64,000 nt of DNA from Cytobacillus firmus (GTDB lineage Bacteria > Bacillota > Bacilli > Bacillales > Cytobacillaceae): assembly GCF_023657595.1 (NCBI RefSeq), contig NZ_CP098323.1, forward strand, positions 4,550,001 through 4,614,000. The letters run 5' to 3'. Positions within the stretch are counted from its first letter, which is position 1, and every line of letters begins with the position of its first letter. The notes beneath the pieces are model-generated. The model was not told the DNA's origin, did no database searches, and worked only from the letters and a program-made list of their open reading frames with translations. The translations under genes were made by a program, and so were the position numbers. Positions 30,370 through 38,768 of the stretch are shown here, in pieces.

Positions 30370-32724
30370 TTATTTCTTAACAGAGAAGGAGTACTCCTCG
30401 AATATGGAATTAGAATAGTTATCAATCTTTATATAATATTTTCCGGCCGGTAAAGATACCGTTTCTGTTACTTGTTCTGCTGTAACATTATTATAAGGTG
30501 TATACAGATAATTAAGAGTTGTGCCGGATCCATCTACGATTTCATAATACCAGCTGCTGTCTTCTTTTGTTAGTGCTGTTAAAGAAATAGTACTTGGCTT
30601 ATCTAACTGGAAGGAGTAGAAATCATTGTCGCTTCCACTCTGAATAGATCCTGTTATTTCTGCACCTATGCTGATTGGGTTCGAAGATTGAACACTGTTA
30701 TTGAACTCTTTCTCGTAGTTGCTCACTTTGCTGAAGTTAACCTTAATTTCATATTCAGCATCTTTACTGGACGAGTAATTTTCAATCACAAGGTAATATT
30801 CACCTGCCGGCAAACCAATCGGAACATTAGAGTAGCCGCTTGCATAATCATCGTATTTTGTGTTGAAGTACGCATATGGCTCACCATTCCGGTTTATAAC
30901 CTGCACTTCCCAGCTTTTACCCGGGGTGTTTTTCACGTTTACATTTATTTTGCCTGCAGAATCTAAAGTGAATTTATAAAAATCTACTGTTTCGGATTTA
31001 CTTAATAAGCCTTTATAGCTTTTATTCAGTTCCAGAATGTTTGCCGTTTCGATGGTGTTATTAAATTCCTTTTCAAAGTAATTGCCTTGAATATACTGTA
31101 CATTAAACTTGTACTCTTCGTCCTGTGCATCACTATAATGATCAATCAGGAAGTAATAGGTTCCAGCTGGCAAACCAGTCCGATAGCTTGCAGCTCCATT
31201 TGCATACGTTCCATAATCAGTAGAAAAGTATGTAAATATTTCTCCTTTCTCATTCATCAACTTGCCTTCCCACGCAACTCCAGGCTTCTGGTCCATTTTC
31301 AATTCCACTTGCCCTGGGGCTGCCAAAGTGAATTTGTAATAATCCAGGTCCCCGCTATCTTGCAGAGCCCCTTTGTAGTCCGCATTAACATTTATTTGAT
31401 TTGCTGCTGCAATCGTATTGTTCATTTCTTTTTCATAATTGTTGCTCTTTGTATATTTAATAGTAAATGAATATGGAACTTTATATCCATCTGAATAGTT
31501 TTCAATATTAATATAGTATGTCCCCTTCGGAAGCCCCACCGAATTATTCGTTACTCCTGAAGCCCCGGAGCTGTAGTTAGTGGAGAAATCCTCAAGTGAA
31601 TCCCCATTAGCCGTTAATATAGTGGCATACCAGCTTGCACCACTTGTTTGTTTAAGCTGGAGGGTGATATTTCCAGGTTCAGTGATGGTAAACTGATAAT
31701 AATCTTCATCCCCGTAATCCGCCAGCTTGGCACTATAAGTCTTGTTTACATCAATTTTGGCTGACTTCTCAAATGTATTATTCGCCTGTAAATCATTCAT
31801 TTGAGTTAATACATTATTAGAAACAGCTCCATTGCCGCCTAATGCAGTCAAACTTGAGTAAACATTCGAGTTTAGATGGCTCTTAATAGCGTCTGGAAGC
31901 TTAGTTGGCTGAACCAAAAGCATGGCTCCATTATTCTTTGCTGCTAAAACGGATCCTGTTAACGCATCCGCAAAGCTGGTGCCAGTGGCAGCATATGCCG
32001 CTGGAGCTTTGGACTGGAACTGGTTAATAATTGCAACAGCTGTCTGATAGCGATCCTTCCCTGAAACGCGTTTGGCATTGGGTGCTTGAGTCAGCAGGCT
32101 ATCAGCTAAGATCCCCTTTCCTCCAACAAAAATTGTTTCTGACTTGCCTTTAAGCTTTTCCTTTGTTACTTCCGGCAATGTTTTCGTTTCACTCAACAGA
32201 ATTGGGTATCCCATTCTGGCTGCATATGGTGCAATGGATAAAGCATCCGGAAAGTTTCTTCCATATGCAATAATAGCTTTATTGCTGTTTCCCAGCTTGT
32301 CAGCTATTAGCGCGGCTGTTATGTATCGGTCTTTTCCGCCTATACGTTCAATAGAAAGTCCCATAGAGCGAAGTTCCGCTTCGACATTTTCCGTAATAAT
32401 TCCTTTACCGCCCAGGATGACTGCTTTTTTTGCTTTTAAACTTGAAATCTGTTTCCTGGTTACTTCACCAAGGGTATTTTTTTTAGTCAGCAGAATTGGT
32501 GCATTTAGTTTGTAAGCTAACGGACCACCCGCTAAAGCGTCAGGAAAATTATCTCCAATCGCCAGTACAACCGTATCAGCTGCAGTCCAGCCCTTTTTCG
32601 AAATGTTAACTGCTGTCTCATAGCGGTCTTTTCCTGATAATCTGGTACTTTCTGCGTAGGTTACTTCCTGAGTAAAGAATATAAGTATAACCAGACTCAG
32701 GAAAACGTATAATGATTTTTTCAT
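30370..32724 (-). CDS. Triple CWB2 surface protein with four PPC-type repeats, 784 aa
   Basis: Signal peptide about 1-24; three CWB2 repeats at about 27-310 (LSGKDRYETAV, IGGKDRYITAA and VSGKDRYQTAV). Four PPC-like beta-sandwich repeats of about 115 residues follow. Each starts with an N-E(K/M)-NNT-type stretch and a DxDYYxFT strand and ends with a GLPxGxYYxxIxNYSD strand (LPKGTYYINIENYSD, LPAGTYYFLIDHYSD and so on). The protein ends in the last PPC strand, with no sortase signal. PPC domains often bind carbohydrate or accompany secreted proteases; here they make the whole effector part, so a binding or adhesive role is likely. Copy 3 of the shared motif lies upstream. Confidence 0.88.
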   Translation of the reverse strand: MKKSLYVFLSLVILIFFTQEVTYAESTRLSGKDRYETAVNISKKGWTAADTVVLAIGDNFPDALAGGPLAYKLNAPILLTKKNTLGEVTRKQISSLKAKKAVILGGKGIITENVEAELRSMGLSIERIGGKDRYITAALIADKLGNSNKAIIAYGRNFPDALSIAPYAARMGYPILLSETKTLPEVTKEKLKGKSETIFVGGKGILADSLLTQAPNAKRVSGKDRYQTAVAIINQFQSKAPAAYAATGTSFADALTGSVLAAKNNGAMLLVQPTKLPDAIKSHLNSNVYSSLTALGGNGAVSNNVLTQMNDLQANNTFEKSAKIDVNKTYSAKLADYGDEDYYQFTITEPGNITLQLKQTSGASWYATILTANGDSLEDFSTNYSSGASGVTNNSVGLPKGTYYINIENYSDGYKVPYSFTIKYTKSNNYEKEMNNTIAAANQINVNADYKGALQDSGDLDYYKFTLAAPGQVELKMDQKPGVAWEGKLMNEKGEIFTYFSTDYGTYANGAASYRTGLPAGTYYFLIDHYSDAQDEEYKFNVQYIQGNYFEKEFNNTIETANILELNKSYKGLLSKSETVDFYKFTLDSAGKINVNVKNTPGKSWEVQVINRNGEPYAYFNTKYDDYASGYSNVPIGLPAGEYYLVIENYSSSKDAEYEIKVNFSKVSNYEKEFNNSVQSSNPISIGAEITGSIQSGSDNDFYSFQLDKPSTISLTALTKEDSSWYYEIVDGSGTTLNYLYTPYNNVTAEQVTETVSLPAGKYYIKIDNYSNSIFEEYSFSVKK

Positions 32725-34638: not shown

Positions 34639-34664
34639 AGAAAAAAGCGGAAAGCACCGCTTTT
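34639..34664 (-). terminator. Terminator of the peptide/regulator operon
   Basis: Minus-strand AAAAGCGG / CCGCTTTT stem, 6-base loop, followed by a T-run; 18 bp after the peptide stop codon. Confidence 0.85.
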
Positions 34665-34681
34665 ACTAAATGATTATTATA

Positions 34682-34897
34682 TTAATGTTCTGAAGGAATT
34701 CCTAAGCTGTGTTCAGATGGAATACCAGCTAACTCAACTGGCTTGCCAATACTATGTTCAGATGGTATGCCAGCTAAATCTGCAGGTTTGCCAATACCAT
34801 GCTCCGATGGTATGCCAGCCTCCAGGGTTCCCGTTAATGATGCTCCAGCGCCGATTAATCCTAAAGCCAACGCCCCAGTTAAGATTAACTTTTTCAT
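34682..34897 (-). CDS. Secreted peptide-pheromone precursor with four GIPSEH copies
   Basis: 71 aa. N-terminal signal sequence MKKLILTGALALGLIGAGAS. The rest is a repeat: AGIPSEHGIGKPADL, AGIPSEHSIGKPVEL and AGIPSEHSLGIPSEH, i.e. a 15-residue period with GIPSEH four times, the last at the extreme C-terminus. At DNA level the 45-base units are recognisable but diverged at third positions, so the peptide is under selection. The start is the ATG at 34897 behind GAGAGGAG; a further upstream in-frame ATG lies in that Shine-Dalgarno. It follows an RRNPP-type regulator by 44 bp in the same direction. By analogy with PapR, NprX and Phr peptides, it would be exported, trimmed and re-imported to bind that regulator. 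The mature form is unknown; an octapeptide ending in GIPSEH is my guess. Confidence 0.75.
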   Translation of the reverse strand: MKKLILTGALALGLIGAGASLTGTLEAGIPSEHGIGKPADLAGIPSEHSIGKPVELAGIPSEHSLGIPSEH

Positions 34898-34941
34898 GAC
34901 ATAAGCTCCTCTCATTCATAATTTATCGAATTATTTATATA

Positions 34942-35829
34942 TTAACATTTATTGAGCAATTTTTCCATTTCGGTTTCAATAATTTGGATGAATTTATCAT
35001 TCTTTTGCAGCTGCAGGATATAAATGGCTTTCTGGAGGAACTCTTTACCCTTTTCTTTATTGCCGAGTTTGATATAATTTTCCCCACTTTGATAATGCAA
35101 ATTAGCAAACAAATATTGTATTTCTTCATGTATGCAAATATCAATTCCCTTTTGGCAATATACCAGGGATTCCTGGTATTCTCCTATTTCTGTTAAAGCT
35201 TGGGATAAACCAAACAAAATCCTGACTTTCCCTCTGCTCTCAAGGATATGAGGGAGTTTATCCAAATCATTTAGCCCTTTTTTGAACATAGAAATGGCTT
35301 CTGTATAATGGTTCATGTCTTTATATAAAATAGCGATACTTGTTAATATTTCGACTTCTCTTTCCGATAAATTTACCCTTTTTTCATTTGTAAGGTCTAA
35401 AGCGCCGTGCAGCAGCTGGATGGCTTTATCAAAATTATTCTCAAGATAAAACACACAGATTCCCTGATGCCAGACTAAAAATTGCTTCAGCATGACAGGC
35501 TGGAAGATCGGATTTTCCAATTCCTTTTGGACAATTTCGTAAATCGCCTGATAATTCCAATTCCGCTTGTGCTTATTTATAATTTGCATAACTGCTGTAG
35601 AATAATTTATGGTAGATTTCGAGGCAATATTAAAGAAGTACGTAAGATCAATGTTCATTTTATTAGCTAATTGATTCAGCGTTTCCAAACTTGGATATGA
35701 CTTCTCTCTTTCAAAGGAAATTAGTTCCTCTTCCGTACATATGCCTTCTGCCAGTTCCTTAACACTTAATCCTTTATACTGACGAAAAGATTGTAAGCTG
35801 TCGCCAATTAAATACTCACTTAAATTCAT
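34942..35829 (-). CDS. RRNPP-type HTH-TPR regulator (NprR/PlcR-like)
   Basis: 295 aa. N-terminal XRE-type helix-turn-helix (about 8-63: LQSFRQYKGLSVKELAEGIC, then LISFEREKSYPSLETLNQLA). The remainder is built of TPR-type helical hairpins (about 100-285), with IYEIVQKELENP, YTEAISMFKKGLNDL, YQESLVYCQKGIDI and GKEFLQKAIYILQL marking the repeats. This is the architecture of PlcR, NprR and Rgg-related peptide-sensing regulators. It is followed by the secreted repeat peptide, which is the normal gene order for such a cassette. DNA binding and peptide binding are inferred from architecture. Confidence 0.88.
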   Translation of the reverse strand: MNLSEYLIGDSLQSFRQYKGLSVKELAEGICTEEELISFEREKSYPSLETLNQLANKMNIDLTYFFNIASKSTINYSTAVMQIINKHKRNWNYQAIYEIVQKELENPIFQPVMLKQFLVWHQGICVFYLENNFDKAIQLLHGALDLTNEKRVNLSEREVEILTSIAILYKDMNHYTEAISMFKKGLNDLDKLPHILESRGKVRILFGLSQALTEIGEYQESLVYCQKGIDICIHEEIQYLFANLHYQSGENYIKLGNKEKGKEFLQKAIYILQLQKNDKFIQIIETEMEKLLNKC

Positions 35830-35851
35830 CAGCTTTCCCTCACTTAGTATA

Positions 35852-36140
35852 ATTAATAGTATTATCTTACCACAAACAGTATAGTATCGTTAAAGATTCA
35901 GGAGTGTGCAGGAACTGCATCAGTCTATATACAGTGCGGAAGTAAAAAGTTTCAAGAGCATACTGTAAAACGATTCTTAACAGGGAAAACATCTTGGCAG
36001 TTAAATTAATCTTAACCCCAATATATATTATTCGCTAGTACCGGCAAATATCCTTTTAATATTTAAAAATTTAAGTCTCTTTTCTTGGAATGCGGCCAAC
36101 TTTATAAATCTTTTAGATTCTGCGATTCCTCGGCGCAAAA
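35852..36140. other. Intergenic region upstream of the HTH-TPR regulator
   Basis: Nothing coding is visible. AT-rich throughout; it should hold the promoter of the regulator-peptide operon, but I find no hexamers with convincing spacing relative to the start codon. Confidence 0.4.
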
Positions 36141-36165
36141 TAAAAACCCTGCTTTAAAGAGGGTT
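36141..36165 (-). terminator. Terminator of the 48-codon gene
   Basis: Minus-strand AACCCT / AGGGTT stem followed by TTTATTTT. Confidence 0.7.
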
Positions 36166-36201
36166 AAATTTTCATTCATATTCTATCTGCCAGTTCGTTT
36201 A

Positions 36202-36348
36202 TTAATTTCCTATTATTTTTCTTAAGTCATTTTCAATCTCTGAGAGAAGCATGTTAACGCTCATCTCTTTTTCCCCAATACCCTTTTCATATGCTTTCGT
36301 TAGCATATTCAAAAAAAGCTGACTTAGTTTTTCATGATTCCTCAACAA
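36202..36348 (-). CDS. Small protein of unknown function, 48 aa
   Basis: A TTG start at 36348, 9 bases after AGGAGGG, gives MLRNHEKLSQLFLNMLTKAY and on to SEIENDLRKIIGN. A longer reading from a TTG at 36384 lacks a ribosome binding site. The protein is charged and helical with no signal peptide or membrane segment. It stands between the two HTH-TPR regulators and ends in a terminator, so it is a real unit. Family not recognised. Confidence 0.5.
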   Translation of the reverse strand: MLRNHEKLSQLFLNMLTKAYEKGIGEKEMSVNMLLSEIENDLRKIIGN

Positions 36349-36501
36349 CTTTTTTAACCCTCCTATTTTCCTATTCTTAGACAATATTCTATTTTATTTT
36401 CTATTATTTGACAACATATTTCCAGTTAATTAAAAAAAGAACCACCTCCGATAGGGAAGCGGCTGAAATTGGAGATTTAAAAGGATGTAAACATCAATTG
36501 C

Positions 36502-36522
36502 ATTTAGGGTTCCTTCCTAAAT
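36502..36522. promoter_or_regulatory. Operator-like dyad between divergent genes
   Basis: ATTTAGG-N7-CCTAAAT, a perfect 7-bp dyad about 150 bp upstream of the second HTH-TPR regulator and of the divergent small gene. Size and symmetry fit a homodimeric HTH protein. There is no T-run, so it is not a terminator. Confidence 0.4.
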
Positions 36523-36674
36523 ACATTTCACATTACTCATTAAAACATTAATAAAATGTTTATGTATTAGAGAATATTGCTCTTTATCAACGGATTTCAG
36601 TTTTAAATCTCTTGTTTATACCGGTTTTTAATAGTAAATATAACTATAAGAATATTTTTTCAGGAGGTAATCTT

Positions 36675-37556
36675 TTGGATTTTTCTGCAATCGGGAAAAA
36701 AATCAAAGAGTTAAGAAAATCAGCAGGTTTTTCCCAAAAAGATCTGGCAAGAGATATATGTACGCAAGCGCAAATTAGCAAAATTGAAAAAGGTGATGTC
36801 CTTCCTTTGGCTTCCACTCTATATTTCATTTCACAGAGGCTGGGGGTAGATATAAATTACTTTTTTGATCACGGAACGACCCCAAGGCTTGATTATGTTC
36901 AGGAAGTTAAAAATCAGCTAAAAATGGCCAGACGCAGGCTTGATTATCCCCTTATAAAAGAGATTGTGGAAGTTGAAGAAAAAAATCCGCTTTTTTCATC
37001 CAACAAGAAAAATTCCCAGATTCTTCTCTGGCATAAAGGTATTTACAAATATCATGTCGATCACCAGCTTGAAGAAGCACTTCTATTTATGGATAGAGCC
37101 ATCGATTTGACATTCGAGAAAGTGTGGAGTGAAAGGGAAATCGAGATTCTGAACAGTAAAGGAATCTTATTATATGAAGTAGGAAGATATAAGGAGGCCC
37201 TTGATGTATTCCGTCGTGCCATAAATCATTTAGGAGAAATCATTTATTTAAATGATGAAACAGTCCGAAGCAGGCTTCTTTATAATACGGCCAAAACCTA
37301 TACAGGTATTGAGGACTACGATCACTCTACAAATCTCTGTCATGAGGCTATTAAATACTGCATAGAGAAGGATCAGTTATTTCTATTAGGGCATCTTCAT
37401 TATCATATTGGATTTAATTATGAGCTCAAAGAACAGTTTGTTTTGGCGAAAAAGTATATGGAACAAGCTCTTGATATATTCCGCCTTCAAAAAGATGAAA
37501 GATATATTGACTTTATAAGTGAAAAAGTAGCAATTTTCGACAGAAACATCCAATAG
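36675..37556 (+). CDS. RRNPP-type HTH-TPR regulator, second copy
   Basis: 293 aa from a TTG at 36675, 7 bases after AGGAGG. Same build as the regulator at 34942: XRE-type HTH (IGKKIKELRKSAGFSQKDLA, then ISKIEKGDVLPLASTLYFIS) and TPR hairpins to the end (YKEALDVFRRAINHL, YDHSTNLCHEAIKYC). The two share the layout DINYFFD/DLTYFFN, WHKGIYKYHVDHQLEEAL/WHQGICVFYLENNFDKAI, and so are clear paralogues. No secreted peptide gene follows it. It may read the peptide of the neighbour or one made elsewhere. Confidence 0.87.
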   Translation: MDFSAIGKKIKELRKSAGFSQKDLARDICTQAQISKIEKGDVLPLASTLYFISQRLGVDINYFFDHGTTPRLDYVQEVKNQLKMARRRLDYPLIKEIVEVEEKNPLFSSNKKNSQILLWHKGIYKYHVDHQLEEALLFMDRAIDLTFEKVWSEREIEILNSKGILLYEVGRYKEALDVFRRAINHLGEIIYLNDETVRSRLLYNTAKTYTGIEDYDHSTNLCHEAIKYCIEKDQLFLLGHLHYHIGFNYELKEQFVLAKKYMEQALDIFRLQKDERYIDFISEKVAIFDRNIQ

Positions 37557-37697: not shown

Positions 37698-38768
37698 GTG
37701 AAAAAACAGATTGTCACAATTGCTGCTGCAGCAATGCTCTCTTCAGCCTTTGCCTCTCAGGCTTCCGCCGATACATATACAGTTAAAAAAGGGGATACCC
37801 TGTTTCACCTGGCTATTAAATATAAAACGACTGTTACAGATATTAAAAAAGCCAATAATTTAAGTTCCGATTTTCTATCAATCAATCAAAAACTTGAAAT
37901 ACCAGGGGCAGCAGCAGCAGAGAAGCCTGAATCCAATCAGCCATCAGGCGGAACCACAGCACCTGCACCAGCTAATCCGGCTAAAACTTATACCGTTAAA
38001 AGCGGGGATACTCTATCTAAAATTGCCTTAAGTCATAATATTAGTTTAAAAGATTTAATGAGCTGGAATGGTCTTAGCACACACTTGATCTACCCTGGAC
38101 AAGTCTTTAAAGTTTCAAAGTCTGCTGGTAATACCTCAGGCGATTCTCAAGGGCAGACAGGTTCAGCACCTGCACCGTCAGCACCTTCTAATGGCAGCAG
38201 CTCAGAGATATATGTTGTTAAAAAAGGGGATACACTAAGCGGCATTGCTGCTAAGTATAAGACTACTGTTCAGCAGATTAAAGCGTGGAATACGCTAAGT
38301 TCTGATTTAATTCTGATTGGACAAAAGCTAAACTTAAGTGCAAGCAAGGGCTCCAATGAATCTGTTTCCAGTGGAAAGCCTGGCAATAATGATCAAACAG
38401 ACAATGGAACAGCATCATCGGTTTTAGCTGAAGCCCAAAAGCATGTTGGTGTCCCTTATCAATGGGGCGGCCAAACTCCTTCAGGCTTTGACTGCAGCGG
38501 GTTCATTTATTATGTTCTAAAGCAGACAGGCTCCAAAATGGGACGCTACTCTTCTGAAGGATACTACAGCCGTTCTTTTTACGTGAATACGCCGCAGCCT
38601 GGCGATTTAGTATTTTTTGAGAATACATATAAAAAAGGCATTTCTCACTTAGGCTTCTATGTTGGAAATAATAAATTTATCCATGCCGGCTCCTCGGGCG
38701 TTGAAGTTTCCAGTCTGGATAATTCGTATTGGAAGAAACATTTTGATGGATTTAAACGATTATACTAG
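37698..38768 (+). CDS. LysM / NlpC-P60 peptidoglycan endopeptidase
   Basis: 356 aa. Signal peptide 1-24; three LysM domains (about 26-69, 97-140 and 171-213, each opening YTVKKGDTL or similar) separated by Ser/Pro/Ala/Gly-rich linkers; NlpC/P60 domain 240-356. The catalytic Cys266 is in [12 protein letters not shown], with His317 (ISHLGF) and His329 (FIHAGS). Domain order matches B. subtilis LytE/LytF/CwlS, D,L-endopeptidases that cut stem peptides during growth and cell separation. GTG start, with AAGGAG 12 bases upstream (rather long spacing). Terminator follows. Confidence 0.92.

Follow-up and report, generated by a model that had tools for sequence, protein, structure and literature searches.

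A PlcR-like receptor gene and an adjoining precursor with four copies of a candidate pheromone in Cytobacillus firmus

The soil bacterium Cytobacillus firmus carries two adjoining genes that raise a simple question: does a quorum-sensing receptor lie next to a precursor that holds its pheromone in several copies? The genes are located in a 64,000-nucleotide stretch of contig NZ_CP098323.1 (positions 4,550,001 to 4,614,000; the window), and all coordinates below are those of this stretch. The two-gene unit is very probably a quorum-sensing cassette of the PlcR/PapR type whose precursor is an array. A first-pass annotation of the same DNA had proposed an RRNPP receptor paired with a precursor that carries the pheromone in tandem, and this proposal is supported by gene order, by homology to PlcR, and by the adjacency of receptor and peptide genes in 65 of 65 related places. 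The unit includes the following features.

34942..35829, reverse strand: PlcR-like receptor and transcription regulator (helix-turn-helix, HTH, plus tetratricopeptide repeats, TPR), 295 residues; Pfam, PDB sequence match and fold match
34682..34897, reverse strand: putative multi-copy pheromone precursor, 71 residues (77 residues from 34915); open reading frame (ORF), codon-level copies, and a ..P..H precursor in all 65 related places
34906..34913, reverse strand: Shine-Dalgarno-like GAGAGGAG, found by eye, 8 nucleotides 5' of the ATG at 34897
34799..34816, reverse strand: GIPSEH copy 1; degenerate genome-wide DNA pattern
34754..34771, reverse strand: GIPSEH copy 2; same pattern
34709..34726, reverse strand: GIPSEH copy 3; same pattern
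34685..34702, reverse strand: GIPSEH copy 4, C-terminal, 8 residues past copy 3; same pattern and spacing count
34643..34664, reverse strand: intrinsic-terminator-like hairpin 3' of the precursor gene; hairpin scan

The receptor and the precursor

The regulator groups with PlcR by sequence and by predicted fold. Its Pfam matches include RNPP_C (E 1.5e-16) and HTH_3 (E 3.2e-06), with the RNPP_C and TPR families exceeding the cut-off, and among PDB sequences it matches PlcR (2qfc, E 1e-16). When an AlphaFold2 model of the protein (mean predicted local distance difference test score 90.9) was compared by Foldseek, the top match was the PlcR-PapR7-DNA structure 3u3w (E 1e-11), at 24% identity to PlcR. 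At 295 residues, the protein lies within the size range of RRNPP receptors (250-500 residues, with peptide-binding TPRs). What had been described as an HTH-TPR regulator of RRNPP build is, on this evidence, more exactly PlcR-like.

The longest ORF of the precursor gene spans 34682..34915 and would encode 77 residues, and an alternative start at ATG 34897 gives 71. We prefer the shorter reading because GAGAGGAG lies 8 nucleotides upstream and the chain then starts with MKK, both judged by eye. From this start the gap to the regulator stop codon is 44 bp, which agrees with the 71-residue precursor 44 bp past the regulator that had been annotated. A ribosome-binding site and a terminator had likewise been noted, and a terminator-like hairpin lies at 34664..34643; a scan of 2.1 kb for terminator-like sites returned four, against a mean of 1.2 (standard deviation 1.2) in shuffles. 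The N-terminus combines the MKK start with a hydrophobic stretch (best 12-residue mean 2.5), and the precursor is probably secreted.

Both the ORF translation and a genome-wide search confirm four copies of GIPSEH, the final one at the C-terminus. The search pattern was degenerate at the DNA level, so that all possible spellings of GIPSEH would match, along with a few other residues in place of the serine; the reversed pattern served as a control. It matched four times in the 4.98 Mb genome, always inside the precursor gene, and the control matched nowhere. Successive copies are 15, 15, and 8 residues apart; the 15-residue period noted earlier thus holds for copies 1-3 but not for the last. 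Codon spelling differs among the four copies, and therefore they do not reflect a recent exact DNA duplication.

Homologous pairs and selection on the copies

Homologous pairs were sought in 193 family genomes, 97 of which gave matches at E <= 1e-30. Receptor places of the first type, defined as those scoring at least 240 bits in these genomes, number 65; 62 distinct places were analysed jointly, and the near-duplicates L011 and L068 and place G076 were checked separately. Every one of the 65 has an adjacent ..P..H peptide gene. In 60 of the 62, this gene encodes a secreted-looking precursor whose longest ORF starts -6 to +63 nucleotides from the end of the receptor gene, and in the remaining two (L024, with seven copies visible, and L028, with two) the arrays run off contig ends.

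Two or more copies are present in 63 of the 65 places, the exceptions being L073, with one copy, and L040, where a run of Ns interrupts the second. The number ranges from 1 to 16 (the maximum in L059), and draft genomes may be undercounted because arrays hit contig ends (L024, L028, and L145) or the N run of L040. Named records that bear arrays include Cytobacillus oceanisediminis, C. firmus, and C. citreus, and also records titled Sporosarcina globispora and Bacillus infantis. A two-copy GYPTQH version on a C. oceanisediminis plasmid is annotated as a hypothetical protein (the one annotated example looked at). The phage records searched gave three weak Enterococcus matches and nothing more.

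The first-pass annotation had suggested asking whether copy number varies among homologous pairs while the core stays constant, and had named repeat peptides that never lie beside an HTH-TPR gene as evidence to the contrary. The adjacency is seen in all 65 places, and on the receptor tree the expected pattern emerges. The 22 core types require 21 changes, which is the minimum possible (and again 21 on 59 rows), whereas the 13 copy-number states on the 59 rows require 32. Copy number is labile, and core and receptor are inherited together.

For comparisons within genes, cores were defined as having no more than two mismatches from the consensus of their own gene, and so very degenerate copies would be missed. 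Proportions of synonymous (pS) and nonsynonymous (pN) differences were computed pairwise for 310 core copies in 60 precursors, with the N-run gene excluded and the pairs non-independent. The core copies give a pS of 0.552 and a pN of 0.0123, a ratio of 0.022, and eleven of them depart from the consensus of their gene. When arrays with regular units are considered, pN is 0.010 for cores (pS 0.482) and 0.134 for spacers (pS 0.330), a spacer ratio of 0.41. Because silent sites have diverged and the hexapeptide has not, the internal copies look selected rather than recently duplicated, and every core copy appears to be under strong constraint.

The IGKP segments between the copies had been described as either spacers or second signals. 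Their faster protein change in regular arrays fits the former and disfavours the latter. By eye, stretches resembling S-[VI]-x-K-P recur in distant members of the family, and these may be a cleavage signature.

Across the order, 127 of 348 sampled genomes gave matches at E <= 1e-40. The 21 newly fetched loci that were examined comprise eight with multi-copy precursors, nine with single-copy precursors, and four without a recognised peptide. Cores of single-copy relatives, located at the extreme C-terminus, include GLPSQH, GLPNQH, and ILPAQH. A tree of 93 receptors was built by a quick search without bootstrap, with a long-branch warning from the program; on it, the 85 rows that have a peptide require one change between single and multiple copies, and the array thus arose once by parsimony. 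Four distant PlcR-like receptors (L102, L105, L108, and L109) have a single-copy peptide ending in DLPNQH or ELPFEH, encoded downstream on the opposite strand.

Recognition and release of the peptide

AGIPSEH fits the pattern of PapR, with Pro4, Glu6, and His7. In relatives, position 6 is Glu or Gln and only rarely anything else. According to the accessible text of PMC6568020, PapR7 is ADLPFEF, with Pro4, Glu6, and Phe7 essential. The accessible text of PMC5007282 states that PapR IV ends in LPFEH and that the PapR Glu contacts K87, K89, and Y275 of PlcR. Over a compared PlcR stretch that excludes Y275, the aligned residues of the regulator are R89 (K87), W91 (K89), and K201 (K197). At the gatekeeper sites K87 and K89, the regulator therefore has a basic residue in R89 and a replacement in W91; both sites are R in 43 of the 62 receptors. 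Residue 91 changes once among the 62 and is for this reason statistically uninformative.

Residue R89 ranks first for co-change with core position 5 (mean log10 p -4.9, uncorrected), ahead of I271 and G207 (PlcR N201). It is replaced in 4 of 62 receptors, each with an unusual or reverted core position 5. For core position 1, receptor residue 214 is the top-ranked column: an acidic core is found with a basic residue, and a G core with an acidic one, in 68 of 81 cases, with 11 neutral and 2 opposed. Outside the discovery set, 21 of 23 receptors, some of them near-identical, fit this rule.

Several observations weigh against the reading of the unit as a PlcR/PapR-type cassette. A fifth lineage with an unusual or reverted position 5 (L054) retains R89, and outside the discovery set L129 (EMPTRH) and L076 (DLPDRH) keep R as well. 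Given the last two failures, the rule linking R89 to position 5 counts as partial support only. For core positions 2 and 4, the highest-ranked columns (F280 and L212) are not among the PlcR contacts named in the accessible parts of the papers. Tests on independent pairs were underpowered, with 3 to 6 pairs and significance unreachable; no pair pointed in the opposite direction. The regions upstream of the 62 receptors share, across clades, neither a palindrome nor a 9-mer that stands out from the AT-rich background. The PlcR box (TATGNAN4TNCATA) has no match with up to two mismatches in 35542..36560, on the upstream side of the receptor gene; genome-wide it has 18 matches, against 5 for the reversed control, and none at the receptor promoter. 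We therefore file the system as PlcR-like RRNPP and not as PlcR itself. On balance, the co-variation lends moderate support to cognate binding of core and receptor, and by analogy with PapR the GIPSEH peptide would bind the adjoining regulator.

The residues around the cores carry possible clues to processing. With genes weighted equally, A occupies the position just before the core in 65%, and L, V, or I the position before that in 64%; an internal core is followed by S in 71% and by G in 16%. The core H is the end of the precursor in 31 of 59 cases, and the other 28 have a trailing tail. Tails such as SIGGSKLA and SFELA look by eye like a final spacer ending at the point where another core would start. 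In the L059 and L061 arrays (GLPTQHGLPTQH) the cores abut without any spacer; release of every copy would then imply a hexapeptide unit that is cut after H. The genome encodes eight oligopeptide-binding proteins and three M4 metalloproteases, some of which might serve this system.

Following the PlcR/PapR paradigm, which is our model for processing, binding, and regulon alike, the 71-residue precursor would be exported by Sec, and extracellular proteases would cut on either side of each core (usually with a hydrophobic residue plus A before it and S or G after its H). Up to four GIPSEH or AGIPSEH peptides could be released per chain and re-imported by an oligopeptide permease. The peptide would then bind the TPR domain of the regulator and alter DNA binding, and copy number would set the signal yield per translation.

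A more conservative reading holds that the C-terminal copy alone is the signal, as in classical PapR, and that the internal copies are inert remnants of duplication. A single N-terminal cut would indeed free such a copy in the 31 precursors, out of 60 in the codon comparison, that end at the core H, but the 28 with a tail have no C-terminal copy at all, and internal copies are conserved as protein despite many silent differences (the core ratio of 0.022). We consider this quite unlikely. That the repeat protein is instead a ribosomal peptide antibiotic, a metal-binding protein, or a surface protein seems very improbable. Although each repeat carries a His and the N-terminus is secretion-like, the gene lies directly 3' of a PlcR-like receptor gene in all 65 places, and its core is PapR-like and follows the receptor tree. 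Moreover, none of the 11 window proteins scanned around the precursor was recognised as a modification enzyme; they belong to acyltransferase, CWB2/PPC, LysM/NlpC-P60, and HTH-TPR-RNPP families or to no Pfam family.

The window also holds another candidate listener.

36612..37556, forward strand: second, divergent PlcR-like regulator of another clade, with no ..P..H peptide gene recognised; possible second listener

The peptide might signal to this protein, in addition to its neighbour or instead of it. A search around the second regulator for a secreted peptide gene of the form ..P..[EQ][HFYW] found none, the two regulators are the only RNPP_C receptors in the whole genome, and a second-type regulator adjoins the first-type gene in several relatives. 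However, in several genomes (G037, G009, G010, and G165, for example) a member of the second clade is the sole match at E <= 1e-30, and the residues that align with the pocket in this clade are not those of the first type. We consider signalling to the second regulator rather unlikely.

Known systems and the neighbourhood

The PapR precursor holds one heptapeptide. As a PlcR/PapR-type cassette with an array, the C. firmus unit differs in copy number (four here, as many as 16 in relatives) as well as in having a receptor only 24% identical to PlcR and no upstream PlcR box. It shares with PlcR-PapR of the Bacillus cereus group the HTH and TPR receptor, the fold, and an adjoining gene for a small peptide that here is probably secreted. 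The cores are also alike in having Pro and Glu and in ending with an aromatic residue or His, as does the LPFEH of PapR IV (PMC5007282, accessible text). The accessible text on PlcRa-PapRa (PMC3519770) describes a PlcR paralogue that is similar in that its signal CSIPYEY is internal to the precursor, not terminal, and its targets showed no palindrome, but different in that there is a single heptapeptide and papRa lies upstream of plcRa.

Multi-copy precursors of RRNPP and PlcR systems have been published (PMC9765709 and PMC11343458, both accessible in part), and thus the kind is already known. According to the accessible text of Felipe-Ruiz 2022 (PMC9765709), the mature peptide is repeated in 3 of 15 PlcR propeptides of atypically large size, and AimR, NprR, PlcR, and Rap systems can carry as many as six copies. 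These RRNPPA propeptides likewise repeat the mature peptide within one chain, whereas here arrays are the rule (63 of 65), reach 16 copies, and are spacerless in L059 and L061. The available portion of Felipe-Ruiz 2024 shows tandem Phr pheromones to be excised and active, and refers to reports of as many as 8 copies (PMC11343458). Its Rap-Phr systems of phages phi3T and phi105 also carry tandem pheromones per propeptide, identical in phi105, but the receptor is a Rap and not PlcR-like, and the copies number two. The RRNPP_detector paper, in its accessible part, cites intragenic duplications and sets propeptide limits of 10-100 residues (PMC10075063). By longest ORF, 22 of the 60 precursors here exceed 100 residues, and such genes are easily missed, given this limit and annotation as hypothetical proteins.

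What is new here is a PlcR-like clade with arrays as the rule, to which the three published PlcR cases may or may not belong. Our literature search found no account of the clade, nor of arrays that are near-universal, spacerless, or 16 copies long, nor of the codon-level findings, which is weak evidence with subscription papers and preprints mostly uncovered. Six core strings, including GIPSEH, gave 0 papers as literature text, again weak evidence with supplements outside the search.

The family offers a natural series of 1-16 copies of a near-constant signal with homologous receptors. Within it one can ask whether copy number tunes the quorum threshold and how repeated bacterial pheromones are excised, and it supplies 22 concrete peptide codes paired with receptors (62 receptors). 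More speculatively, and with rather more doubt than belief, we propose that the array arose once in the PlcR-like clade and became the rule there, that copy number is a fast-evolving dial of signal dose and perhaps of quorum threshold, and that the hexapeptide code is locked to the receptor. The extremes (GLPTQHGLPTQH, 16 copies) would then be pheromone polyproteins whose units are the whole signal.

Two further genes of the neighbourhood encode cell-wall-related proteins.

37698..38768, forward strand: LysM and NlpC/P60 cell-wall hydrolase gene, 3' of the second regulator
30370..32724, reverse strand: CWB2 cell-wall binding and PPC domain protein, 784 residues

In five other places (L074, L075, L077, L078, and L080), PlcR-like receptors occur as tandem pairs with no ..P..H peptide gene recognised alongside, and these could be signal-less listeners. 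Of 49 second-type rows, some of them partial, 16 have a LysM/NlpC-type ORF within the flanks of ~1.5 kb (upstream in one case), and the second regulator and its LysM/NlpC-P60 gene may be a conserved regulator-target pair.
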